From positions 1-64,000 of the IMG/VR virus record IMGVR_UViG_3300035698_016731: a DNA stretch of 64,000 nucleotides; one strand, written 5' to 3'. Below the pieces are notes generated by a model. It searched no databases and was not told the origin of the DNA. It worked only from the letters and a program-made list of their open reading frames with translations. The DNA comes from a virus. Both the position numbers and the translations under genes were made by a program. Positions 4,503-22,197 of the stretch are shown here, one piece after another. The first letter of the stretch is position 1. Each line of letters opens with the position of its first letter.

Positions 4503-5331
4503 TCCTAAAATCATTATCTGTGGGTGTGGAGCAAGTGCTTCCATAGCTAAGCACTACTTTCCTGAATCTATGGTTATAGGGAAAGTGACCTCACCCACAT
4601 ATAATTTCGGTCTACATTATTTACATAGACCTTTAGAAGATATTTTTGAAATGCAAAAGATAAAAGTAGAAACAACAATAGATTTTGAACCAGTTACAAA
4701 AGAAGGAATTGAGCGATATAAAAAATCTGTATATGGAGATACTTGGGAAGAGCATACAAATAAAGAAGGACAATTTCCAGTTGGTGTAACTTATGGGTGG
4801 CTAATAAAAGGAGATAAGAAACCTTTGAAAGTAGATAGAGATGGAATGATACAGCATATTGATATATATAAAAAGACTATTGAAGTTGGTAGCTCTACAT
4901 ACTTCTATGATGTCCTAATAAATACTATACCTTTAAATATTTTTGCTGAGTTGATTGGAATAAAAATGGTAAATGATTTCCAACATTCTCCTATCTGTAT
5001 ACACCAAAGAGTCTGTCTTAGAACCGATAAGTGTGACCCTTACTTGTGGACTAATTATGATACTAAATATGAATATTATAGATATACAAAACTTTTTAAT
5101 GATAATAAAATATTTGAAACAAAAGAACATATCGGAGACTGCTTGGATGGAGTAGTAACTCTGAGACCAGGAAAAATCTTGAACTCAGGAGATTATAATA
5201 ATCTACTACAAAATCTTTTTAGAAAAGAAGTATATAGTGTTGGAAGATATGCTCAATGGGACAGCTCAGTACTATTGCACAATGTTGATGATAGAGTGAG
5301 GACTATAAAGGATATGCTCAATGAATTTTAA
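4492..5331 (+). CDS. Rossmann-fold, FAD-dependent oxidoreductase-like protein
   Basis: A 279-residue protein opening with a beta-strand and GxGxSAS loop (GCGASAS near residue 11), a dinucleotide-binding Rossmann signature. A later segment (near 165-180) reads like the 'VINTIP' strand of amine oxidase, UDP-galactopyranose mutase and protoporphyrinogen oxidase relatives. The start at 4492 is chosen because AAAGGAAAG lies 14 bases before it and the upstream in-frame extension only overlaps the previous gene. It is two genes before ThyX, itself an FAD enzyme, but a shared pathway is only inference. Substrate unknown. Confidence 0.6.
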   Translation: MLDNPKIIICGCGASASIAKHYFPESMVIGKVTSPTYNFGLHYLHRPLEDIFEMQKIKVETTIDFEPVTKEGIERYKKSVYGDTWEEHTNKEGQFPVGVTYGWLIKGDKKPLKVDRDGMIQHIDIYKKTIEVGSSTYFYDVLINTIPLNIFAELIGIKMVNDFQHSPICIHQRVCLRTDKCDPYLWTNYDTKYEYYRYTKLFNDNKIFETKEHIGDCLDGVVTLRPGKILNSGDYNNLLQNLFRKEVYSVGRYAQWDSSVLLHNVDDRVRTIKDMLNEF

Positions 5332-6265
5332 AGATATGTGGAAAGAACAAAAGAAATTTAATAAAATCTTCATTCCCAATTTAGATAGTCTAACAGAAGA
5401 AGAAAGAAATCAATTCACTAAAGACTATGCTATGAGTATCATGGGAGAAGTCGGAGAGTTAATGAAACAAATTAACTGGAAACTTCACCGAAGAGAGATT
5501 AAGGAATACAATAAGGATAATATTGTAGAAGAAATAGTGGACTTGTTCAAATATACTATGTCTCTAGCAGTACTATGGTGTGATAATTCTGATGAGTTTT
5601 TAGAAGAAAATTATAAGAAGTCTGTTATCAATCAACAAAGGTATGTCCAAGAATTCATTTCTACTTATAAAGACTGCTGTGTAATAGATATTGATGGAGT
5701 TCTAGCTCAATATAGAAAAGGATTTATTGAGTTTATAAATAAAGAAACAGGAAACTCTTTCAAAGAAGAAGATACAGAGAGATATGATTTTTGGATAGAC
5801 TTAAAAATTAATGCTAAAGATTGGCGTGTACTTAAAGAGAAATTCCGAAAGACAGGAGTTAAGAGACAACTAGAAACTTATAGGGGAGCCAGCACATTAA
5901 CAAAATGCTTAAAAGCTTGGGGATATTCGATAGTTATAGTTACTGCTCGTCCAGTACGGAAATATAAAAGAGTTGCTAGAGATACATTGTTCTGGCTTAG
6001 AGATAAAAATATACAATTCGATTCCTTAGTTTTTACTGAGAATAAGCTAGAGGGATTGATTGATATGAAGATTCCTTTTGAAAATATAAAGTTTGCAATA
6101 GAAGATGATTTAGGAAATGCTAAGAGATTTGCTTCTTGTGGAGTACTTACTTACCTTATAGACCAGTCCTATAATCAATGTGAAAATTTAGATACAAATA
6201 TCTGCCGAATGAAAAATTTAAGTAAAATTACTGGAGAACTACAATATATCAATAACCTAATATAA
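5321..6265 (+). CDS. MazG-like pyrophosphohydrolase fused to HAD-type phosphatase
   Basis: Two enzymes in one 314-residue chain. Residues about 1-105 show the all-alpha NTP pyrophosphatase (MazG/dUTPase-2) pattern: GEVGE at 42-46 and EEIVD at 70-74, the Mg-binding carboxylates. Residues about 115-290 are a HAD-fold phosphatase: DIDG at 123-126 (motif I), TAR at 208-210 (motif II) and EDD at 261-263 (motif IV). The fusion would convert an NTP or dNTP to the monophosphate and then to the nucleoside, or clear ppGpp-like or dUTP-like nucleotides. The start overlaps the previous stop by 11 bases and ThyX follows at once. Confidence 0.8.
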   Translation: MNFKDMWKEQKKFNKIFIPNLDSLTEEERNQFTKDYAMSIMGEVGELMKQINWKLHRREIKEYNKDNIVEEIVDLFKYTMSLAVLWCDNSDEFLEENYKKSVINQQRYVQEFISTYKDCCVIDIDGVLAQYRKGFIEFINKETGNSFKEEDTERYDFWIDLKINAKDWRVLKEKFRKTGVKRQLETYRGASTLTKCLKAWGYSIVIVTARPVRKYKRVARDTLFWLRDKNIQFDSLVFTENKLEGLIDMKIPFENIKFAIEDDLGNAKRFASCGVLTYLIDQSYNQCENLDTNICRMKNLSKITGELQYINNLI

Positions 6266-9247: not shown

Positions 9248-9457
9248 ATGAGTGAAAAACAGGCTTTAGTTAAAGGAAATTTGCGCCCATACGGAGTAGA
9301 GTGTTTTATTAATGAGAATACTTTAGATTATGATTTAGATTCCATTACACCTGTTCCTTGGCACTCATGGAATATCTCAGCTCAAAAGGATAGCATTGGA
9401 GGTTATAATTATTTAGTTGTGTTAAAAAAACGTCCACATGTGGAGGGTGTAGAATGA
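9248..9457 (+). CDS. Hypothetical protein, 69 aa
   Basis: A 69-residue mixed-composition protein preceded by AGAGGGA. Its stop overlaps the ATG of the protease gene (ATGA at 9454). No family recognised; the coupling suggests co-expression with the protease. Confidence 0.6.
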   Translation: MSEKQALVKGNLRPYGVECFINENTLDYDLDSITPVPWHSWNISAQKDSIGGYNYLVVLKKRPHVEGVE

Positions 9458-10125
9458 ATATCTTCAATTTAATCAAAGGAATTAAAGTAACTCATTTCAA
9501 AGCAGGATTCTGTCACAAAGAGCAACTTCCTGTTGGAACAAAAATAGTAAAAACTAATACAGAGTTCCTTGCTCCAAGAAAGATTGACAACAGAGATATG
9601 TTATTAATGAGCAGTAATCAAGGCAACACTCCTCATTGTGCAGGGTATGCTACTGCAGGGTATATAGAATTTCAAAATTGGAAACACCTTCATTATTCTC
9701 GCCAAGTAGATGGAGATGAAATCTATAGACAAGCTAAAACAATAGACTGGATTAAGAGTGAAGGAACTACATTGAGCTCAGCTATCAAAGGAGCTATCCA
9801 GTTAGGTTTTATAAAAGGAGAATTGAAAGCCATTAAGAAAACAAGAATTGCTATTAAGTTCGCTATTCACCAATATGGAGTAGTAGTATCAGCTTTTGAT
9901 ATTACTGATGAATGGAACTATGTAAATGGTAAAACTGGTATGCTGAATATACTTGATGGAGAAGCAGAAGATTTAGGTGGACATGCAGTATTACTCTGTG
10001 GCTACGACAAAGACGGAGTTTACATACAGAACTCTTGGGGAGAGAATTGGGGAGTACATGGTTTCGCTATAGTACCATGGGAACTCTTTGATAAACAATT
10101 TTATAGTGGGAGGGTGATAGGATAA
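9454..10125 (+). CDS. Papain-like (C1-type) cysteine protease
   Basis: A 223-residue peptidase of the papain fold. The oxyanion glutamine (Q56) and catalytic cysteine (C62) lie in SNQGNTPHCAG, the catalytic histidine (H177) in GGHAVLLCGY, and the asparagine (N193) in the NSWGENWG block. It is about the size of a mature C1 peptidase, with no propeptide or signal sequence visible, so it should act in the cytoplasm of the infected cell or in the virion. Such enzymes are unusual in phage early regions. Target unknown: host protein inactivation or maturation of a phage protein are both possible. Confidence 0.82.
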   Translation: MNIFNLIKGIKVTHFKAGFCHKEQLPVGTKIVKTNTEFLAPRKIDNRDMLLMSSNQGNTPHCAGYATAGYIEFQNWKHLHYSRQVDGDEIYRQAKTIDWIKSEGTTLSSAIKGAIQLGFIKGELKAIKKTRIAIKFAIHQYGVVVSAFDITDEWNYVNGKTGMLNILDGEAEDLGGHAVLLCGYDKDGVYIQNSWGENWGVHGFAIVPWELFDKQFYSGRVIG

Positions 10126-10188: not shown

Positions 10189-11370
10189 ATGAAAGTATAT
10201 GAAGGCAAAAGAGTACCAATAAAATGTTGGTGTAATAATCCAGAACAAGGAGCATTAAACCAGGCACAGAACTTAGCAAGTCTACCTTTTGTCTTTAAAC
10301 ATATCTGTCTTCTGCCTGACACTCATCAAGGTTATGGTATGCCTATTGGTGGGGTTATTGCATGTAAACAAATAGTTATCCCAAATGCTGTAGGAGTAGA
10401 CATTGGCTGTGGAATGTGTGCAGTACAAACCTCATTAACAGAAATAACTCAAGAACAAATTAAAAAGATTTTTGGAGGCAGCAAAGAAAATCATGGAGGT
10501 ATTAGAAGTGCAATCCCTGTAGGATTTAATCACCATAGTAAAAAACAAGAATGGGAAGGCTTTGAAGAACACCCTGATATTCCAATTATAAATCAGGAAA
10601 TTGAATCATCTAAAAAACAACTTGGGACTCTTGGTGGAGGAAATCACTTTATAGAAATACAAAAAGGAAGTGATGGATATATCTGGATTATGCTTCATTC
10701 TGGAAGTAGAAATTTCGGCTTAAAGATAGCAAAAACTTATAACCGAATAGCTACTAATTTATGTAACAGATGGTTTTCAAATATACCTCCAATAAAAGGA
10801 GAGGATGGTCTTGCTTTTCTTCCTATAGAGACAAAGGAAGCTAAAGACTATTTGTCTGCTATGAACTATGCTTTAAAATTTGCTCTTGAAAATAGAAAGA
10901 AGATGATGAGTGTAATAAAATATGAATTTAATGAAGTAACTGATTGTTTTTTTGACCAGGAAATAAATATCCATCATAACTATGCTAAGTATGAAAATCA
11001 TTTTGGAAAGAATGTTATTATTCACAGAAAAGGTGCTACTTCAGCAAGATTAGGAGAATATGGAATCATACCAGGAAGTCAGGGAACAGCATCATATATA
11101 GTAAAAGGTAAAGGCAATCCAGAAAGTTTCAATTCTTGTTCTCATGGTGCAGGTCGGACAATGAGCAGAAGTAGAGCCAAAAAAGAACTTAATTTAGAAG
11201 AAGAGCAGAAAAAATTAAATGATAAAGGTATTATACATTCTATCAGAAATGCTAAAGACTTAGATGAAGCAAGCTCTGCATATAAAGATATTGATTTAGT
11301 TATGCAAGAACAAGATGACCTTGTTGAAATAGTTGTTAAACTTGAACCTCTGGCTGTAATAAAAGCATAA
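10189..11370 (+). CDS. rtcB: RNA ligase RtcB
   Basis: A 393-residue Mn- and GTP-dependent ligase that joins 2',3'-cyclic phosphate or 3'-phosphate RNA ends to 5'-OH ends. Metal-site residues lie in GVDIGCGM (D71, C74), GGGNHF (near 149-154) and LHSGSR (near 169-174). The histidine that takes GMP is H319 in the CSHGAGR box. It is close to the size of bacterial RtcB. It has its own promoter (copy 2) and AAGGAAGG. A plausible role is repair of tRNAs cut by host anticodon nucleases, an anti-defence function known for other phage RNA ligases; here it is inference. Confidence 0.92.
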   Translation: MKVYEGKRVPIKCWCNNPEQGALNQAQNLASLPFVFKHICLLPDTHQGYGMPIGGVIACKQIVIPNAVGVDIGCGMCAVQTSLTEITQEQIKKIFGGSKENHGGIRSAIPVGFNHHSKKQEWEGFEEHPDIPIINQEIESSKKQLGTLGGGNHFIEIQKGSDGYIWIMLHSGSRNFGLKIAKTYNRIATNLCNRWFSNIPPIKGEDGLAFLPIETKEAKDYLSAMNYALKFALENRKKMMSVIKYEFNEVTDCFFDQEINIHHNYAKYENHFGKNVIIHRKGATSARLGEYGIIPGSQGTASYIVKGKGNPESFNSCSHGAGRTMSRSRAKKELNLEEEQKKLNDKGIIHSIRNAKDLDEASSAYKDIDLVMQEQDDLVEIVVKLEPLAVIKA

Positions 11371-13413: not shown

Positions 13414-13414
13414 T

Positions 13415-13914
13415 AAGACAAAGAGAGTTCCTATTAACCTGACTTGAAATCAAAAATACTCTCCGTCTTTTAAATAGTGAAGACATAAGAAGTTCCTAAA
13501 CGACAATACTCTGATAATGTAAATACTTCTCGTCTTCATAAAAATTGAGGCATAAAAAGTTCCTAAACAACTTTCATTTGGAGAAAAAATACTTTTCGCC
13601 TCCCTAAAAAATTGAGACAAAAAAAGTTCCTATTAAAAAATAATCTGCCTAACCAGCAGACTCGAAAGATACTTTTCGTCTCATTAAAAAGGGAGATTTT
13701 TAAAGACAGAAAAAGTTCCTAATAACCGACAGAGCCTTCCTTTTAGGTTGGCTGTGCCACTGAAATACTTTTCGTCTTTTTAAAAAAATTTAAGACATAA
13801 GAAGTTCCTATATATATCGGAACTGGCTAACCACCAGTCTAAATACTTCTCGTCTTTTGAAAATAAAAACAAACTAAGGCAAAAAAAGTTCCTATCTGGT
13901 TACTTTTAGCCTTA
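13415..13914 (+). ncRNA. Tandem array of seven structured RNA hairpin units
   Basis: About 500 bases with no gene, filled by seven units of one hairpin design: 13415-13469, 13478-13538, 13547-13602, 13614-13682, 13702-13779, 13792-13856 and 13875-13914. Each reads stem P1 (5-7 bp), a three-base ANA bulge, stem P2 (5 bp), invariant UUCCU, a variable part, AxAUA (absent in unit 7, where only UA remains), P2', one unpaired C (A in unit 7) and P1'. P1 is AAGAC, UGAAGAC, GAGGC, GAGAC, AAAGAC, AAGAC or UAAGGC and P2 is GAGAG, AGAAG or AAAAG, each matched exactly by its 3' partner, so the stems covary. Units 4 and 6 carry an inner hairpin with loop CUAACCA. It is transcribed from promoter copy 3 and ends seven bases before the next ribosome binding site. 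It could be a stand-alone RNA or a long leader. Confidence 0.88.
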
Positions 13915-13924
13915 CCACTAAAGG
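13909..13924 (+). promoter_or_regulatory. Possible ribosome-binding-site switch at the last hairpin
   Basis: The 3' strand of hairpin 7 contains CCTT (13910-13913). It can pair with AAGGC (13876-13880) to complete the hairpin, or with AAGG (13921-13924) of the AAGGAGGG ribosome binding site across a 7-base loop. The two pairings exclude each other, so folding of unit 7 would free the ribosome binding site of the TerD-like gene. Only four pairs support the alternative, so this is tentative. Confidence 0.35.
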
Positions 13925-13933
13925 AGGGATGTG

Positions 13934-15838
13934 ATGAAGTCAACCATCAATCTATTCAAAGCTCTTCCTATCACAAAGAAAGGGAAGAAAAATGCCAACC
14001 GACTAATTCTTGAAGAGACTATAAAAAGAGGATTTGTATTCTCTCCTGAAGTAGTTAAGAATTACTCTGAAGCAGAGTTGCTCCAGTTAATCAAAGTTGT
14101 TGAGAAAGAAGTAGGCTTGACAGCAGGACAGATGAATGCTTCTTTCCATAAGTCTTGGAAGAAAGTTCAAGAAGCCAGTATCGAGCAATTAGTCATGGAA
14201 CAGTTGATTCACTATATGACTACCTATGGCTTTGAAAGAATGGGGATATATGATGAGAGTACAGTCTTTATTCCTGTTGAAGAGTTGGATATTCCTGAAA
14301 CAAAGTTAGACCAAATAAAACTAACTGTAATAAAAGGATATACTAAAGATGAATTGAAAGTAAAGTTGTTAGACTTTCTGGATACAGGAATTGCTTTAAA
14401 AGAGGAAACAAAGAAAGATGTTATAGATGTTTCTACTTTTGTAGATGTAGAGACTAATGACCTTGAAAAAGTGAAAAATAAAGAAGTTCGGATAGCTCTA
14501 TATGATTATTTAGATATATTTCCTAAGAGTCCTGTAGAGTTCCTACGTTATGCTATTTATAAGTCTACCAATAAGACTCTTCTCATTAAAGACAAAATGA
14601 CTATAGCTGAGATAAAGTCTAAAGATAACCTTCAGACTCTTGCTCTTTTCAACAAATATAAAAAGAAATATGGTTTAGAAAGATTGAGTGAAATATTCTA
14701 TCGCTTTAAACCTCTCTTCCTTGCTTTTAAAACCAATACCAGATTAGGAAGTATAATAAACCGAATCAGAAAGCTTGCTCCAAAGAACCATAAGCCTCTT
14801 CCAGAAGATTATCTGAACACAGTTACGGCTCGGATAAAGAAAGGAAAGAAGCTTAATACAGTAGAATTAGAAAGGTGTTTAGAAAAAGCAAATACCTTCA
14901 GAAAGATAAGGTTAGCTTATGCTTTGAAGTTCCGTACTATTGGTGCTGATTCTATTCTATATCGAATAAGGAATGGTAAAGGATTTGCAAAAGCATTTGA
15001 GCCATCTAATAGTATGGTTTCTAATATGATTTTAGCACAAGTCTTACACTCTATTGCTAAAAGTGTAAAGGAAAATGTAAAGGGGAAGAAAATCTATATC
15101 CCTGATTATATAGACTATGCTCTTCCTGCTACAGAGAAGATGTTTACAGGAGACTTTCCTTCAGGTACTTGTGTAACAGTTCCTAACAATATGATTCTAG
15201 GAGTACAGTGGTTCAATCTTAAAGGTCAGAGAATAGACCTTGACCTATCTTTGCAGAATCCTGAACTTGGGAAGATAGGATGGGATAGAAGTTATCGGAC
15301 TGATGATAGAAAAATCTTATTCTCTGGAGATGTAACAGATGCTCCTAAACCAAAGGGAGCTTCTGAACTCTTCTATATTAAGAAACAGTTTAACCAGGAT
15401 ATGATTCTGGTAGTAAACTATTTTAATCATGACAAAGCACAGAATGCTGAAGTTCCTTTTAAAATCCTAGTTGCTCAAGAGGAAGTAGCAAGATTTGGAA
15501 AGAACTATACTGTTGACCCAAATAATGTACTATCTGTATCTAAGACTTCCATAAATAAATCACAGAAGATATTAGGTCTACTTTCCATTACTGAAAAGGA
15601 ATGTAAGTTTTACTATGCTGAAGCTAATATAGGAAAGTCTATAACCTCTTATGGAGCTGACTATATGGAACACAGTAGAAAATACCTTTTCCAGTTCTAT
15701 AAAAATACTATAGGATTGAAAGGTATTCTCGAATATGCTGGTGCAACAGTAGTTGGGGATAAGGAAGAATGTGATATAGATATTGACCTTTCTCCTGAGA
15801 CATTAGAGAAAGATACTATAATCAATCTGTTGAAATAA
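13934..15838 (+). CDS. Large protein with C-terminal TerD-like domain
   Basis: A 634-residue protein. Residues 1-400 are mainly helical and basic, resembling an alpha-solenoid (repeated helix pairs around 185-350), which could bind RNA. From about 415 the sequence turns to beta-strands with GQRIDLDLSL (near 431-440) and LFSGDVTDAP (near 462-471), a pattern like the Ca-binding TerD stress-response domain. AAGGAGGG lies five bases before ATG 13934; an in-frame GTG one codon earlier is less likely. It directly follows the seven-hairpin array in the same transcript, so the RNA may be its ligand or its control element. Similarity to TerD is by eye. Confidence 0.7.
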   Translation: MKSTINLFKALPITKKGKKNANRLILEETIKRGFVFSPEVVKNYSEAELLQLIKVVEKEVGLTAGQMNASFHKSWKKVQEASIEQLVMEQLIHYMTTYGFERMGIYDESTVFIPVEELDIPETKLDQIKLTVIKGYTKDELKVKLLDFLDTGIALKEETKKDVIDVSTFVDVETNDLEKVKNKEVRIALYDYLDIFPKSPVEFLRYAIYKSTNKTLLIKDKMTIAEIKSKDNLQTLALFNKYKKKYGLERLSEIFYRFKPLFLAFKTNTRLGSIINRIRKLAPKNHKPLPEDYLNTVTARIKKGKKLNTVELERCLEKANTFRKIRLAYALKFRTIGADSILYRIRNGKGFAKAFEPSNSMVSNMILAQVLHSIAKSVKENVKGKKIYIPDYIDYALPATEKMFTGDFPSGTCVTVPNNMILGVQWFNLKGQRIDLDLSLQNPELGKIGWDRSYRTDDRKILFSGDVTDAPKPKGASELFYIKKQFNQDMILVVNYFNHDKAQNAEVPFKILVAQEEVARFGKNYTVDPNNVLSVSKTSINKSQKILGLLSITEKECKFYYAEANIGKSITSYGADYMEHSRKYLFQFYKNTIGLKGILEYAGATVVGDKEECDIDIDLSPETLEKDTIINLLK

Positions 15839-15845
15839 GGAAAAC

Positions 15846-18800
15846 ATGAGTAGAGACTTTTGCCACCTACACTTGCATGACGAGTTCTCTATACTGGATG
15901 GTCTTGGACATCCCTCAGACTATGCAACGAGAGCTAAAGAACTTGGGCAGAAATACATCGCTCAGACTAATCATGCGAGTATGGGTGGTCTTTATAGATT
16001 CCATATTGCAGTTACTAAAGAGAAAATAAAACCAATTCTTGGACAAGAGTTATATTATGTAGATTCCCTAGAAGATAAAGGAGCAAGACGGCACCATCTC
16101 ATTCTTCTAGCTAAGAATCAGAAAGGCATAGAAAGTCTCAACTCTCTTATCACCATAGGTAATGAACCAGAAAACTATTATCGTAGACCTCGTGTAACTA
16201 TAGATATGATTTGTAAATACTCTAAGGGTTTAGTCTGTGCTACAGCTTGTGTTGCTGGTCCATTGGGAAAAGAAAATGGAGAAAAGGATTTTAGAAAACT
16301 ACTTGAGTGTTTTGCTGAAGATTTATATTTAGAGATTCAACCTCATGTTTGGAATGAACAATCTCTCTTAAATCAACAAGCCTATAGATACTGGAAAAAA
16401 TATGGAAGTAAAGTAATAGCCACTAATGATTGTCATTATGTATTAAAAAAGCATGCTACTTCTCATGAAGTCCTCTTAGCAATACAAAGAAAAGCTAAAT
16501 GGGGTGACCCAAAACGTTGGAAGTTTGACATCAGAGACCTCTATCTTAAAAGCCGAGAAGAAATGTTAGATGACTTCCAAAGAATGGAAAACAAATTTAA
16601 GACAGATTTACCTAATAAATTCTATATAGAATCCCTAGAAAACACCATGCTAGTGGCGTCATCGTGTCACTTTAAGCTTAAAGACCTGCCTCTTAACCTT
16701 CCTAGTGTAAACGACTCGGATTGGACTGATGATGAGCTTTTTAAGAAGAAATGTCTTCAAGGATATAAAAAGAGATTTGACTTTAAAAAGGACAGTCCTG
16801 AATATTTGAGATATAAGAAAAGATTACAATTTGAAATAAGAACCATTATTGAAGGTGGTTTTAGTAGATATTTTTTAATAGTTCTGGATTTAGTAGAGTG
16901 GGCAAGGCGAGAGGATATAATGGTTGGACCAGGCAGAGGTTCTGTGAGCTCATCCCTAGCCAGTTATTGCTTAGGAATTTCTGGTATTGACCCAATTCAC
17001 TACGGACTTATATTCTCTCGCTTCATATCTCCAGACCGAATAGACCTTCCAGATATTGATATTGATTTTGAAGATAGGAAAAGAGATAGAGTTGTGACCT
17101 ATCTTACTGAGAAGTATGGAGAGAAGTGTGTAAGTGGAGTAATTACTTTCGCTAACATGAAGGGCAAGATGGCTATTAAAGATGTAGCTAGGGTGTTTGA
17201 TGTTAGCATAAAGGAAACAAATGATGCAACAAAAATGATAGTTACTCGGAGTACAGGAGATGCAAGAGCAGATTTCTCCATAGATGATAGCTTTAAAGTA
17301 TTTGAAGAATGCATAAAATATAAAAAGAAACATCCAGAAGTAATTAAACACGCCACAGTTTTAGAAGGAAATATCCGACAAGTCGGTCAACATGCTGCAG
17401 GAGTTGTTGTCTCAGGAGATGAGATTGTGCCGAAACGTGCAGCCATTCTTCGAGGTTCTAAGGGTAAGATACTCTGTTATGATAAAGATGACTTAGATAG
17501 AATTGGATTGATGAAGTTAGATATTTTGGGATTAAGAACCTTGAGCATACTTAATGACGTACAACATTTGGTTAAAGATAGACTTGGAGAAGTTCTGGAC
17601 TTTGAGAAGATAGATGTAGGAGATGAAGAAGTGTTGAAGATGTTTGGAGAAGGAGACACTATTGGAGTCTTTCAATTTGAATCTAAGGGTATGGCTAAAC
17701 TTTGTAAAAGATTAGCTCCAATAGAAAATTTTGATATGTTAATTGACGCTAATGCTCTCCATAGACCTGGTTGTATTAAGTCTGGAACTATGAGCAGATA
17801 TGAAGATGTAAGACATGGACGCAAAAAACCTGACTATATTATTCCTTATATGAAAAAGATAACTGAACCAACTCGTGGTATAGTTCTTTATCAAGAGCAA
17901 ATTATGCAAACTATGGTTTTCCTTGCAGGATTTGGTTGGAAAACTACTGACATGATTAGAAAAGTGGTTAGTAAAAGTAAGGGAGATGAATTGTTTGGAA
18001 AGTTTGAAGAAGAATTTGTAGCGAAGTGTAAAGAAAAAAGAAACATTTCTCCAAAGCTATCCAGAAAACTTTTTAAAGAGATTCAGACTTTTGGAAGTTA
18101 TGGATTTAACAAATGTATATGTGGTGATACTAAAGTGTTAAGGGCATCTTGGTACAAAGGAAATAATGCATATTCTATTAAACATTTGTGGAAAATAGTT
18201 AATAATATAGAATATGCGAAAGAAGTCCATGGTCTTTCTTTAAGAAGCAAATTAAGAACTTATGGATATGGTTTTATATTAAGTCAGCATAAAAATGGAA
18301 GAATAAAACCTAATAAAATTATAGATATATATTATAATGGAGAGAAAGAAGTATATGAAATAGAAACTGTTGGAGGAGATTTTGTAGAAGCTACTTTAGA
18401 CCATAGATTTTTAACAAGTAAAGGTTGGAAAAAATTAGAAGATATTGAAATAGGAGATAAAGTAGCCTTTATAGGAGACTATGAAAAATCTAATATCAGA
18501 TATAACTTTACCAATGGAAATTTTAAGTTAAACTCTAAAAAAGGTAAAGAAGGATTTCAAGAAAAACCTAATGGGCAGTCTGTTAAATTTCAGAGGATAA
18601 GAAAAGATTATCTTAAAAAGTTTGGAAATAAATGTATGGAATGTGGGAAGGAACACAAAAGAATAGAAACTGCTCACTTAGATGGAAATAGATTAAACAA
18701 CAAGAAAAGTAATTTAAAAAATCTTTGTCCAAGGTGTCATAAAGTTCATGATTATTCTTTAGGAAGGAAAAAGAAATGGGACAAAGGCAGACCTACTATA

Positions 18801-20417
18801 TACAAAAAAGTCAAAAGCATTAACCTTTCTGGAATGAAAGATACTTATGATATAGAAATGGAATCTCCTAATAACAACTTTATAGCTAATGGATTTGTTA
18901 GCCACAACTCTCATGCTTGTACCTATTCTCTTATAGGATTCTGGTGTATGTATTGTAAAATACATTACCCCACTATCTTCTTTAAAGCTGTTATAGAGAA
19001 TACAAATGCTGATGATAGGTTATGGGAAGCTTTTGAAGGCATGAGACAAATGGACATTAAGACATATATGCCTGATGTAAACCATTCTCAAAGGAAAATA
19101 GACTTTTATGAAGATGGACTGATGTTGGGATTTGCTTTAATAAAAGGATGTGGAGATAAAGCAACTGAGAATATGTTAGGAGAAAGAGAGAAAAATGGAC
19201 CATTCAAAGATTTTCAAGATTTCCTAAAAAGAGTCAACAGAAGAGTAGTCAATAAGAGAGTAATAGAAGCTATGGCTTCAGTAGGAGCTTTTAAATGTTG
19301 GTATCCTAATCAACGGCAACTTATGGAAAACCTTGAACAAGTCTTAAAGGGAAAGTATGAGTGGAAGAAGGAGTATGACTTCTACTCTGAGAAACAAACT
19401 CTTATGATTATAAAGAAACTTATTCCATATATTTCTGGAGCTAATAAGATATATTTCTTTGACAGGCTCAGAAGTATGTTAGGAAGTTTGAAGATAGCTG
19501 AAATAAATTTCAAAAGAGCCAATAGGAATTATACAGTTATCGGAGAGCTTACTGAAGTGAAGTATAGTTATGCTGAAGCTCATAGTGGTAAGAAGATAGG
19601 TGGATTTGTAGACCAACAAAATCTCGGAAATGTATATGGGAATCTATATGATGGAGAAGAGTATATAGTTGGCTGGTTTGATGGAGACATAAAAGCTAAA
19701 CATAAAGATGAAATAGAAAGTATTAAATCTAATGTTATCTGCAGTAAGTTAGAAAATCTTGCTCATAAAACAAGAGTAGCTATCCGAGATTATGCTATCG
19801 TTGATGGCATTCAAGATATAGATATGATTCAACGATTAAAAAAGATAACTAAGTTTAGAATATTGAGAAGGAAAATAAAAAAGAGAGTAGATTGTACAAG
19901 TTGTAATAATTGTAAATTGAGAGAGACTTGCACCAACCCAGTTCCCTATTATTGTAGCAGGGATAAATTCTATGGATTTATAGTAGGAGAAGCACCAGGT
20001 AAGAATGAAGATGCAGGAGGAAAACCATTTATTGGAATGGCAGGAAGAGAGTTAAGAAATATGTTCGACAAGTGTGGAATGAGTGCGAGTGATTTCTTTA
20101 TAACTAATGCTGTAAAATGTCGTCCACCTAGCAATCGAAAACCTTATAAGAATGAAATAGGAAAGTGTGCAAGGTTATGGTTAGAAAAGGAAATAAAAAC
20201 CAACAAGCCAAAGGTAATACTAAGCTTGGGAAATACTCCTTTGTATTTCTTTACAGGAAAGGAGAGTGGTATACTTGAGATGAATGCAAAGTATGAATGG
20301 AACTATGACTATGAGTGTTTTGTAGTCTATTCAATTCATCCTGCAATGGTGTTGTATAACTCTGAGAACAGAGGGATGTTGAGAGAAAGTGTAACTTTAC
20401 TAAGTCAGTTTATATAA
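15846..20417 (+). CDS. dnaE: DNA polymerase III alpha (DnaE) with intein and C-terminal UDG domain
   Basis: A 1523-residue precursor, 1258 after splicing. It has an N-terminal PHP domain (HLHLHDEFSILDG), a C-family polymerase palm with catalytic D403 and D405 in PDIDIDF, then the YGFNK|SHA motif split by an intein (residues 757-1021), and fingers and OB regions. From about residue 1350 there is a cysteine cluster (CTSCNNC...C) and a family 4-type uracil-DNA glycosylase: GEAPG at 1381-1385, GGKPFIG, CRPPSNR and SIHPA near the end. The cysteines fit an Fe-S cluster. It would copy the genome and recognise or remove uracil. AAGGAAAAC precedes ATG 15846. Confidence 0.92.
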   Translation: MSRDFCHLHLHDEFSILDGLGHPSDYATRAKELGQKYIAQTNHASMGGLYRFHIAVTKEKIKPILGQELYYVDSLEDKGARRHHLILLAKNQKGIESLNSLITIGNEPENYYRRPRVTIDMICKYSKGLVCATACVAGPLGKENGEKDFRKLLECFAEDLYLEIQPHVWNEQSLLNQQAYRYWKKYGSKVIATNDCHYVLKKHATSHEVLLAIQRKAKWGDPKRWKFDIRDLYLKSREEMLDDFQRMENKFKTDLPNKFYIESLENTMLVASSCHFKLKDLPLNLPSVNDSDWTDDELFKKKCLQGYKKRFDFKKDSPEYLRYKKRLQFEIRTIIEGGFSRYFLIVLDLVEWARREDIMVGPGRGSVSSSLASYCLGISGIDPIHYGLIFSRFISPDRIDLPDIDIDFEDRKRDRVVTYLTEKYGEKCVSGVITFANMKGKMAIKDVARVFDVSIKETNDATKMIVTRSTGDARADFSIDDSFKVFEECIKYKKKHPEVIKHATVLEGNIRQVGQHAAGVVVSGDEIVPKRAAILRGSKGKILCYDKDDLDRIGLMKLDILGLRTLSILNDVQHLVKDRLGEVLDFEKIDVGDEEVLKMFGEGDTIGVFQFESKGMAKLCKRLAPIENFDMLIDANALHRPGCIKSGTMSRYEDVRHGRKKPDYIIPYMKKITEPTRGIVLYQEQIMQTMVFLAGFGWKTTDMIRKVVSKSKGDELFGKFEEEFVAKCKEKRNISPKLSRKLFKEIQTFGSYGFNKCICGDTKVLRASWYKGNNAYSIKHLWKIVNNIEYAKEVHGLSLRSKLRTYGYGFILSQHKNGRIKPNKIIDIYYNGEKEVYEIETVGGDFVEATLDHRFLTSKGWKKLEDIEIGDKVAFIGDYEKSNIRYNFTNGNFKLNSKKGKEGFQEKPNGQSVKFQRIRKDYLKKFGNKCMECGKEHKRIETAHLDGNRLNNKKSNLKNLCPRCHKVHDYSLGRKKKWDKGRPTIYKKVKSINLSGMKDTYDIEMESPNNNFIANGFVSHNSHACTYSLIGFWCMYCKIHYPTIFFKAVIENTNADDRLWEAFEGMRQMDIKTYMPDVNHSQRKIDFYEDGLMLGFALIKGCGDKATENMLGEREKNGPFKDFQDFLKRVNRRVVNKRVIEAMASVGAFKCWYPNQRQLMENLEQVLKGKYEWKKEYDFYSEKQTLMIIKKLIPYISGANKIYFFDRLRSMLGSLKIAEINFKRANRNYTVIGELTEVKYSYAEAHSGKKIGGFVDQQNLGNVYGNLYDGEEYIVGWFDGDIKAKHKDEIESIKSNVICSKLENLAHKTRVAIRDYAIVDGIQDIDMIQRLKKITKFRILRRKIKKRVDCTSCNNCKLRETCTNPVPYYCSRDKFYGFIVGEAPGKNEDAGGKPFIGMAGRELRNMFDKCGMSASDFFITNAVKCRPPSNRKPYKNEIGKCARLWLEKEIKTNKPKVILSLGNTPLYFFTGKESGILEMNAKYEWNYDYECFVVYSIHPAMVLYNSENRGMLRESVTLLSQFI
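18114..18908 (+). other. Intein with HNH homing endonuclease in the polymerase gene
   Basis: A 265-residue intein occupies the codons between YGFNK and SHACTYS of DnaE. It begins with the nucleophile C757 (CICGDTK, block A) and ends in VSHN (N1021) followed by +1 Ser. Block B histidine lies in TLDHRFL. An HNH nuclease domain in the middle shows CMEC, ETAHLDGNR and CPRCHK, so homing should be active or recently so. All catalytic splice residues are present, so self-splicing to mature polymerase is expected. It is slightly more AT-rich than the extein by eye. Confidence 0.92.
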
Positions 20418-20433: not shown

Positions 20434-20631
20434 ATGAGAGTATTTGTAATCTTTGAATTTCTAATAGTTATTGGTCTACTGTGGTTATCAGCTAACATAG
20501 TTCAATATGCTTGGTTCAAAGAGTTGAGAAGTGGGAGATTCTTCTGCTTATCAAACAAGTGGATAAGGGAAGATGATGAACGACTAGAACAAAAAATCAA
20601 AGACAAAAAGAGGAGAAAAAAAGATGAATAA
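20434..20631 (+). CDS. Small membrane protein, 65 aa
   Basis: One N-terminal transmembrane helix (about residues 3-25) followed by a basic, charged cytoplasmic tail. AGGGGGTGA lies before ATG 20434. Its end overlaps the SPFH gene by 8 bases, implying a joint role at the membrane with that protein. Confidence 0.6.
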   Translation: MRVFVIFEFLIVIGLLWLSANIVQYAWFKELRSGRFFCLSNKWIREDDERLEQKIKDKKRRKKDE

Positions 20632-21619
20632 AGGATTTATATTTGCACTTGCTGGAGTTATTGTATTGTTCTTTTTACTTTTCACTTTCGGCTGGGTTAA
20701 TATTGACCCAACAGAAGTTGGTGTAGAAGTTAATAAGATAATGGGAAAGGTTGACCCTGAACCTCTCGGAGTTGGTTATCATTTCTTTAATAGATTCAAA
20801 ACTGATGTTGAAGTCTATAAGGTAGCCTCTCGTGCATTTCCTGGTGATGTAGACAAGAGTGAAGAGGAAGAAAAATATACTCTTGAACTTAAAACTAATG
20901 ATGGACAAAGAGTATCAGTAGACCTTACTATAATTTATGCCCTTAAATCTAAAGAAGTACCTGTACTTCATGCTAAAGTAGGAAGGAATTTTGAAGATGA
21001 AATACTTCTGCCTCAAGTTCGCAGTGAAGCAAGATTAGCCATAGGTTCTTACTCTGCAGAGGAAATCTATCAAGGTAAGGTTCGAGATGAAATACAGCAA
21101 GGTATTAAAGCTAAACTTATTGCAGCTTTAACATCTCACCCAGCTTTCATCGTTCAAAGTGCTTTAATGAGAGATTTCCAATTTAGTCCAGCTTTTGAGA
21201 AAGCTATTGAGTCTAAGAAACTTGCTGCTCAGCAGGTTGAGATAAACAAGAATAGAGCATTAGCTCAGGAAGAAGAAGCAAAAAGAGTAGAAGCTATAGC
21301 AAGAGGAAAGAAACTACAAGCTATTCAAAATGCAACAGGTGTTGCTGAGTCAGTCAAAATTAATGCTGATGCAGAAAGATATGCATTAGAACAAAAAGCT
21401 ATTGGTAGTTTAGCTATCTACAAAGCTGATGCAGAAGGAAAGAGACTTCAGGCTGAGGCTCTTGGTGGTGGACACAATGTAGTAGCTCTCAAGTTTGCTT
21501 CTACTTTACCTAGAAACTTGAAGATTATTGCTGTTCCAGTAGGGAAAGACTCTACAAGTATCATGGACTTAAATGGAGTATTCAAAGGCATGTTCACTAG
21601 TCCAAAAATAGGTGAATAA
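20624..21619 (+). CDS. SPFH/prohibitin-family membrane protein
   Basis: A 331-residue protein of the stomatin/prohibitin/HflC group. A transmembrane helix (about residues 5-24) precedes the SPFH domain (roughly 28-200, beginning WVNIDPTEVGVEV), and a long Ala/Glu/Lys coiled coil (about 205-285) follows, as in prohibitins. Family members oligomerise into membrane microdomains and restrain FtsH-type proteases; in a phage this could protect phage membrane proteins or remodel the envelope, which is inference. It is coupled to the small membrane protein before it and followed by two pilin-like genes. Confidence 0.85.
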   Translation: MNKGFIFALAGVIVLFFLLFTFGWVNIDPTEVGVEVNKIMGKVDPEPLGVGYHFFNRFKTDVEVYKVASRAFPGDVDKSEEEEKYTLELKTNDGQRVSVDLTIIYALKSKEVPVLHAKVGRNFEDEILLPQVRSEARLAIGSYSAEEIYQGKVRDEIQQGIKAKLIAALTSHPAFIVQSALMRDFQFSPAFEKAIESKKLAAQQVEINKNRALAQEEEAKRVEAIARGKKLQAIQNATGVAESVKINADAERYALEQKAIGSLAIYKADAEGKRLQAEALGGGHNVVALKFASTLPRNLKIIAVPVGKDSTSIMDLNGVFKGMFTSPKIGE

Positions 21620-21620
21620 G

Positions 21621-21896
21621 ATGAAGAAAGGTTTTACTTTGATAGAAATCATAATTATAATTATGGTAATGGTAATACTTGTTGCAGTTGCTATTCCTAA
21701 ATTTGCAGAATTACGCAAGAGAGCTGAACAGACAGAGAAGAAGAGAAGAAAAGCTGAACGATGGGGCAACTCCTTATCTGATAAGGTGTCTGATATTACT
21801 ATGGAGTATGACAATTCAACTAATCAAATAAAATTCACTGTTCACAAAGTGGATGGAAGCAGAAGTAGAGGGTATCTATATGTTCATGATGAATAA
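21621..21896 (+). CDS. Type IV pilin-like protein 1
   Basis: A 91-residue protein beginning MKKGFTLIEI, the prepilin signature: a short basic leader, Gly at the prepilin peptidase cleavage point, Phe +1 and Glu +5, then a hydrophobic helix of about 20 residues and a small charged head. ATG 21621 gives the usual leader; an in-frame GTG at 21612 is less likely. Processing would require host PilD. It is smaller than true pilins, so pseudopilin or pilus-interfering protein are options. Confidence 0.78.
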   Translation: MKKGFTLIEIIIIIMVMVILVAVAIPKFAELRKRAEQTEKKRRKAERWGNSLSDKVSDITMEYDNSTNQIKFTVHKVDGSRSRGYLYVHDE

Positions 21897-22197
21897 AAGG
21901 AAAACTGGTTTTACTTTAGTTGAAGTAATGATAGTTATAGCTATATTAGGTTTACTTGTTGCTATTGTAGCACCTGCTATTATGAAGGCTAAAGAAAAGA
22001 CTGAGAACCACATTAATTATGATAAGAGAATAGAAAGATTCTCAAAAAGGTATGGGTATGAGATGGGAGATGTGAGAATCTTTCTTGAAACTTACGATTT
22101 TACCAACAAGGACTTTATGGAATCAGGTGTATTAAGAGGACAGTTTGAGAGATGGTGTGATGGAGAAGAAACTCAATTTCTCAAAAGAAGAGATTAA
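21880..22197 (+). CDS. Type IV pilin-like protein 2
   Basis: About 105 residues with leader ending KTG and the processed start FTLVEVMIVIAILG, again with Glu at +5, a 20-residue hydrophobic helix and a charged helical head. GAGGG (21868-21872) favours ATG 21880; ATGs at 21886 and 21889 are alternatives. It overlaps the end of the first pilin-like gene in another frame. The two heads are unlike each other, so they are not a recent duplication. Confidence 0.78.
   Translation: MFMMNKRKTGFTLVEVMIVIAILGLLVAIVAPAIMKAKEKTENHINYDKRIERFSKRYGYEMGDVRIFLETYDFTNKDFMESGVLRGQFERWCDGEETQFLKRRD

Follow-up and report, generated by a model that had tools for sequence, protein, structure and literature searches.

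A run of seven RNA hairpins encoded between two genes of a virus belongs to a covarying family of structured RNAs that accompanies the gene of one 635-residue protein and that, in many of its members, carries parts of tRNAs. The hairpins lie at 13415-13914 of a stretch of 64,000 nucleotides (positions 1 to 64,000 of IMG/VR record IMGVR_UViG_3300035698_016731), hereafter the window, within the intergenic stretch 13414-13930. In the reading that we favour, and to which we give an even chance, these are two-module RNAs that show tRNA parts on the 635-residue protein, likeliest as decoys or inhibitors acting against host defences that target tRNA. The family has no Rfam record and one uncharacterized protein as its companion, and we regard it as new on one condition: the open-access literature yielded no earlier report of the RNA family or system, and since subscription papers and most preprints lay outside that search, a prior description among them is possible.

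The array consists of seven members of a covarying RNA family

An earlier note on this DNA, made from the letters alone, had described seven tandem, covarying two-stem hairpins, and both their number and their structure were borne out. The units share one layout: P1, an ANA bulge, a P2 of 5 bp, UUCCU, a variable middle (the cargo), UA, the 3' strand of P2 (P2'), one base and the 3' strand of P1 (P1'). As the note had it, UUCCU after P2 and the ANA bulge opposite a single base are present in all seven units; the single base is A in unit 7 and C in the other six. Before P2' there is AUA in units 1-6 and UUA in unit 7, the one unit that the note had excepted. The inner hairpins it had seen in the variable middles were found in units 4, 5 and 6, and unit 3 also has a cargo hairpin. 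No plus-strand open reading frame (ORF) of at least 60 aa was found across the array, in agreement with its description as non-coding, and the array would encode seven small non-coding RNAs. The frequency of promoter-like sites was not above that in shuffles.

The consensus of 176 distinct units is 5'-RGGC-ANA-RRARG-UUCCU ... UA-CUUYY-C-GCCY-3', and the ANA/C bulge, the 5-bp P2 and the UUCCU/UA loop are common to 279 strict units. A structure descriptor applied to related loci gave 208 matches on the gene strand and 15 on the opposite strand, with 7.7 in dinucleotide shuffles. Among 29 independent units of other loci, double changes occur at 11 of 11 pairs (91 cells against 24.6 in shuffles), a count that leans because its rows were chosen by a pairing descriptor. 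The fair test of pairing is therefore that in which nothing but the sequence of the 5' half was used for selection: for 137 of 155 the complementary 3' partner is present in the same unit, and 15.7 were expected with partners swapped between units. These results uphold the covariation of P1 and P2 that the note had read from the window.

A covariance model (R1), for which 29 units from other loci and none from the window were used, picked out these seven units and no others, both in the window (E 6.6e-14 to 9.3e-7, values that are rough) and in the whole 79.8-kb virus record (E 8e-14 to 1e-6). The seven units are thus members of the family. The note had proposed searches with a covariance model and of Rfam. 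The former gave the R1 matches just described. The latter, with the window as query, gave zero matches at gathering thresholds and just weak unrelated scores at E<=10, consistent with the note's finding no named RNA family to which the array could be assigned; related loci matched only tRNA-type families and tmRNA. A nucleotide search of phages gave no match. What the note had put forward as an undescribed RNA system therefore stands as a structured array with no Rfam match, but the linked protein family had been overlooked, as had the tRNA-derived cargos, the dispersal of copies in tRNA clusters and the presence of the helix within anticodon loops.

The RNAs are linked to the gene of a 635-residue protein

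The partner gene (13931-15838, plus strand; start codon GTG at 13931 or ATG at 13934) begins 16 nt from the end of unit 7, and a ribosome-binding-site-like sequence, AAAGGAGG (13920-13927, plus strand), lies between that unit and the start codon. Unit 7 is a candidate cis-acting copy. This arrangement recurs: the unit nearest to the ORF start ends a median of 23 nt upstream, and within 100 nt in 59 of 73 loci, and hairpin variants are visible in several of the loci that lack formal matches. Moreover, RNA and protein co-occur. Among 148 Bacteroidota genomes, strong RNA matches (E<1e-6) were found only in G001, G027 and G103, and strong protein matches (E<1e-200) in the same three; the sample is small, and as G001 is the query genome, two of the three are independent of the query.

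Copies of the RNA are also found far from the gene. A pattern search of IMG/VR with the RNA alone led to the tRNA clusters of huge phages, and the protein is present in 9 of 16 viral records chosen by RNA, often far from the RNAs, which argues that the RNAs are more than a leader. Huge phages have additional copies inside tRNA clusters, up to hundreds of kilobases from the gene; in G213, for instance, the protein is encoded at 19.6 kb and RNAs additionally at 320 and 414-423 kb. In locus L003, copies lie downstream of the partner gene. With copies in tRNA clusters so far from the gene, the RNAs probably act in trans.

The AlphaFold model of the protein (pLDDT 92.8, pTM 0.90) predicts an all-helical N-terminal domain and a C-terminal TerD-like beta domain. 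We found no relatives in Pfam or PADLOC and nothing convincing in the PDB, by sequence or by fold. The C-terminal part has weak NCBIfam similarity to the MXAN_6230/SCO0854 family, and matches among viral structures are to 'tellurium resistance'-like and TerD-like proteins. Homologues occur in the Synechococcus phages S-CRM01 and S-CBWM1 and the gut phage Phass-1, as well as in 62 viral loci and 53 genome loci. Among their sources are huge phages, the isolates Pedobacter psychrophilus and Zunongwangia pacifica, and bins that carry the labels Lokiarchaeota, Selenomonadaceae, Desulfobacteraceae, Bacilli and Bacteroidota-type taxa; the contigs of many of these bins may be viral. In cyanophages, the gut phage, huge phages and bacterial or archaeal bins alike, the hairpin stands a short way upstream of the homologous gene. 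The partner gene is split by an HNH-type endonuclease ORF (5034-5651) in L002 (4001-6543), and is also in two pieces in L027 and L114. Campylobacter phage CP21 and Lactobacillus phage LpeD, which have relatives by fold, gave no R1 matches. The LpeD protein (L287, 1970-4210), encoded near a PemK mRNA interferase, is a distant relative of the partner protein (E 4.5e-12) and may use another RNA.

Many family members carry tRNA-derived cargo

In one type of cargo a linear tRNA is joined by its ends to P2, with matches to Rfam RF00005 in L064, L152, L186, L193 and L199; a GNRA tetraloop replaces the anticodon loop in the last four, and the cargo of L064 is an intact tRNA-Met. In a second type, a circularly permuted tRNA is opened at the anticodon and its acceptor is capped by UUCG or another loop. 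ARAGORN recognized 7 of 22 long cargos as tRNA only once they were rotated, and none of the shuffles. A third type comprises isolated anticodon arms with authentic loops, or T arms. The Lys-type loop CUUUUAA is found in cargos of S-CRM01, Phass-1 and L029, and further loops are CUGUUAA (Asn), UUGGUAA (Thr), CUGCAAA (Cys), and AUGCUAA and CUUGAAA (both Ser). Over the 279 units, hairpins with a 7-nt loop, U33 and a purine at 37 occur in 54 cargos against 21.8 expected (z 8.7), a count that includes T-loops; other combinations of loop positions gave z of at most 3.6. Loops ending in GGN, like anticodon loops with G36-G37, number 29 against 5.8 expected. A universal anticodon-arm cargo was considered and dropped, as a first count by best hairpin was weak; only the U33/R37 test was clear, and we therefore claim anticodon-arm cargo for a subset.

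The same helix, in reversed orientation, is also found within tRNA anticodon loops, mostly between positions 33 and 34. Anticodon-loop insertions of about 40 nt with the conserved helix are present in tRNA genes of L025, L026, L038, L045, L061, L071, L072 and L073, and annotation tools label such genes (L025, L026 and others) intron-containing tRNAs. Once the inserted helix is taken out, the anticodon loops that result are plausible (Asn GUU, Gln UUG, Pro UGG). The flanking exons would form a functional tRNA here, but not in the capped or tetraloop cargos. Separately, a gene called as tRNA-Ile in L032 (31-391) and in L065 (4223-4583) has 275 nt inserted in its anticodon loop, which may be a group I intron, and an AUUUGG[AC]-type loop recurs in short cargos of many loci (e.g., L007 4808-4859 and L011 4469-4527).

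The units of the window, all on the plus strand, differ in what they carry. Unit 1 (13415-13469; R1 54.6 bits, E 2e-13) has UGA-CUUGAAA-UCA, a tRNA-Ser(UGA)-like anticodon loop on a stem of just 3 bp, and unit 2 (13477-13539; 45.2 bits, E 1.3e-10) has no clear tRNA-like hairpin. The cargo hairpin of unit 3 (13547-13602; 56.2 bits, E 6.6e-14), UUUC-AUUUGGA-GAAA, has a tRNA-Gln(UUG)-like anticodon loop and is found identically in L002 and L154. The inner hairpin of unit 4 (13613-13683; 44.3 bits), UCUGC-CUAACCA-GCAGA, has a 7-nt loop with U33 but with C at 37; unit 6 (13792-13856; 41 bits) has the same loop on a different stem, ACUGG-CUAACCA-CCAGU. Unit 5 (13702-13779; 32.7 bits, E 6.1e-7) contains a long inner hairpin, and the cargo of unit 7 (13875-13914; 32.1 bits, E 9.3e-7) is minimal.

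Possible functions of the RNA-protein pair

In the decoy reading, one module would be the conserved terminal helix (P1, ANA/C bulge, P2 and UUCCU/UA internal loop), the putative docking site of the 635-residue protein; from linkage and co-occurrence, binding of the helix by this protein is most likely. The other module would be the exchangeable middle, in many members a whole, circularly permuted or partial tRNA, mostly translation-incompetent. The resulting particle could offer tRNA parts to tRNA-acting enzymes, and the likeliest use for a phage would be as decoys or competitive inhibitors of host tRNA-targeting defences such as anticodon nucleases. We favour this role for the tRNA-like middles, by analogy, because phage tRNAs counter tRNA-cutting defences (PMC11555353, PMC10264068) and because of a proposal that YrlA, through its tRNA-like domain, inhibits an anticodon nuclease (PMC7790460). 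The copy beside the start codon would let the protein regulate its own synthesis, and such autoregulation is probable from its position. More tentatively, and at less than an even chance, the whole may be a phage platform with no relation to Ro60, where a single protein and exchangeable RNAs with tRNA parts soak up or divert tRNA-attacking enzymes of the host, as a modular counter-defence against tRNA-targeting immunity.

Several observations weigh against decoys. In the window, anticodon-loop-like cargo is confined to unit 3 and, weakly, unit 1; units 4 and 6 carry C37, units 2, 5 and 7 have no clear cargo of this kind, and a circularly permuted tRNA module is absent from all seven, so that mimicry there is partial. 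Elsewhere, many short cargos have no evident tRNA feature. Seven of the 16 viral records chosen by RNA have no protein match, and 2 of those 7 have no model match either; several viral records are fragments, and these may be fragments or pattern artefacts. Finally, some loci in metagenome-assembled genomes (MAGs) have a single unit, compatible with a simple leader.

The closest rival, which we think unlikely, is that the tRNA-like middles serve as handles to bring a nuclease or a tRNA-modifying or processing enzyme to the protein, forming a dedicated machine that processes or degrades RNA, much as Y RNA tethers Rsr to PNPase. The two-module build is shared with YrlA, and the cargos include T-arms and D-arms besides anticodon arms; however, no partner enzyme is linked, and anticodon loops of so many kinds (Lys, Asn, Gln, Ser, Thr, Cys) suit decoys better than a single tether. 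If the hairpins were a cis-acting leader and nothing more, used by the protein to repress its own translation, this would account for a unit close upstream of the gene in most loci, often a sole unit in MAGs, and for the last unit of the window, which abuts the ribosome-binding site. We consider this improbable, as many copies are found in tRNA clusters a long way from the gene and some downstream of it (L003), such copies carry tRNAs, and a leader has no need of seven copies. Alternatively, the helix could be a signal for splicing or circularization: cleavage in its UUCCU and UA strands, with ligation by RtcB, would free spliced or circular tRNAs or small RNA circles. The insertions between positions 33 and 34 of several tRNAs, whose excision leaves plausible anticodon loops, agree with this, as does the RtcB RNA ligase encoded in the window (10189-11370, plus strand; PF01139, E 4.7e-112). 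Yet capped acceptor stems in the permuted tRNAs, and tetraloops in place of anticodons in most linear cargos, would leave the products unable to translate; some cargos are only about 10 nt long, and there is no archaeal bulge-helix-bulge, the sizes of the bulges and the length of the helix being different. RtcB is present in just 3 of 22 related large viral records, on which ground we also rejected it as an obligate component of the system. We hold a splicing signal to be quite improbable.

Helical repeats and RtcB had raised the suspicion of Ro60/TROVE homology, and a true but strongly diverged Ro60/Y RNA system would explain the similar RNA architecture, including the circularly permuted tRNA mimic, the adjoining protein gene and the nearby RtcB (compare the rsr-yrlBA-rtcBA operons). 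Homology was rejected on the results of Pfam (no TROVE match in 70 members), of hhalign with a reversed-profile control (0.2% probability against 13 TROVE proteins, not above reversed decoys) and of Foldseek (no Ro60 among the listed matches of the whole protein or the N-domain); with no match to any Rfam Y RNA model either, we judge such a system very unlikely. We give next to no credence to a type III toxin-antitoxin pair with the hairpins as its ToxI-like RNA antitoxin: an array of tandem structured repeats ahead of a protein gene would fit, but there are no ToxN, AbiQ, CptN or TenpN matches in Pfam or PADLOC, and the units, which vary in length, are two-stem hairpins that lie scattered among tRNAs.

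The system would be a new RNA family with a new protein partner that extends from phages of cyanobacteria, gut and rumen and from huge phages to several bins of bacteria and archaea. It would provide an independent case, besides Y RNA, of tRNA mimicry on a protein-linked helix. It also suggests an unexpected reason for the unassigned gaps in phage tRNA clusters, the purpose of which becomes directly testable, as cargo anticodons would predict the host nuclease met by each RNA.

Neighbouring genes

A papain-family cysteine peptidase (9454-10125) adjoins RtcB. Beyond the partner gene, 15846-20417 encodes a DNA polymerase III alpha subunit that contains an intein (at about residues 817-1021) and has a uracil-DNA-glycosylase domain fused to its C-terminus. 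At 20624-22197 there is an SPFH/Band-7 protein, followed by two short ORFs whose N-termini resemble those of type IV pilins (GFTLIEIIII and GFTLVEVMIV), which are unusual for a phage.

Comparison with known systems

Like the RNAs of type III toxin-antitoxin systems (ToxI, antiQ), the family forms tandem structured repeats with an adjacent protein gene, but it differs in structure, in having no toxin homologue and in its tRNA cargo. With the permuted and intron-containing tRNA genes of archaea and algae it shares a permuted order and a helix at the anticodon end, although here the acceptor ends are capped and many cargos are not tRNA genes; the archaeal-type 4-bp helix with two 3-nt bulges on opposite strands is not the layout of the 279 strict units.

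The tRNA-like module of bacterial Y RNA is a circularly permuted tRNA (PDB 6CU1; PMC11472068, PMC8394870). As in YrlA-Ro60/Rsr, there is a terminal stem with a tRNA-like module, circularly permuted in seven related units, the RNA gene adjoins the protein gene, and RtcB is in the neighbourhood. In contrast to that system, the 635-residue protein has no detectable TROVE homology, the helix matches no Y RNA model, the cargo is far more varied, and there are tandem arrays and copies scattered in tRNA clusters. Because the architecture is Y RNA-like but no Ro60 homology was found, we describe the system as one that would work like a Y RNA system, not as one shown to be such. Finally, like the tRNA-Tyr and tRNA-Lys of T5 (PMC11555353, PMC10264068), these RNAs are phage-encoded tRNA-like molecules found in tRNA clusters; unlike those counter-defence tRNAs, most of their tRNA bodies are translation-incompetent and are attached to a conserved helix that is linked to one protein.
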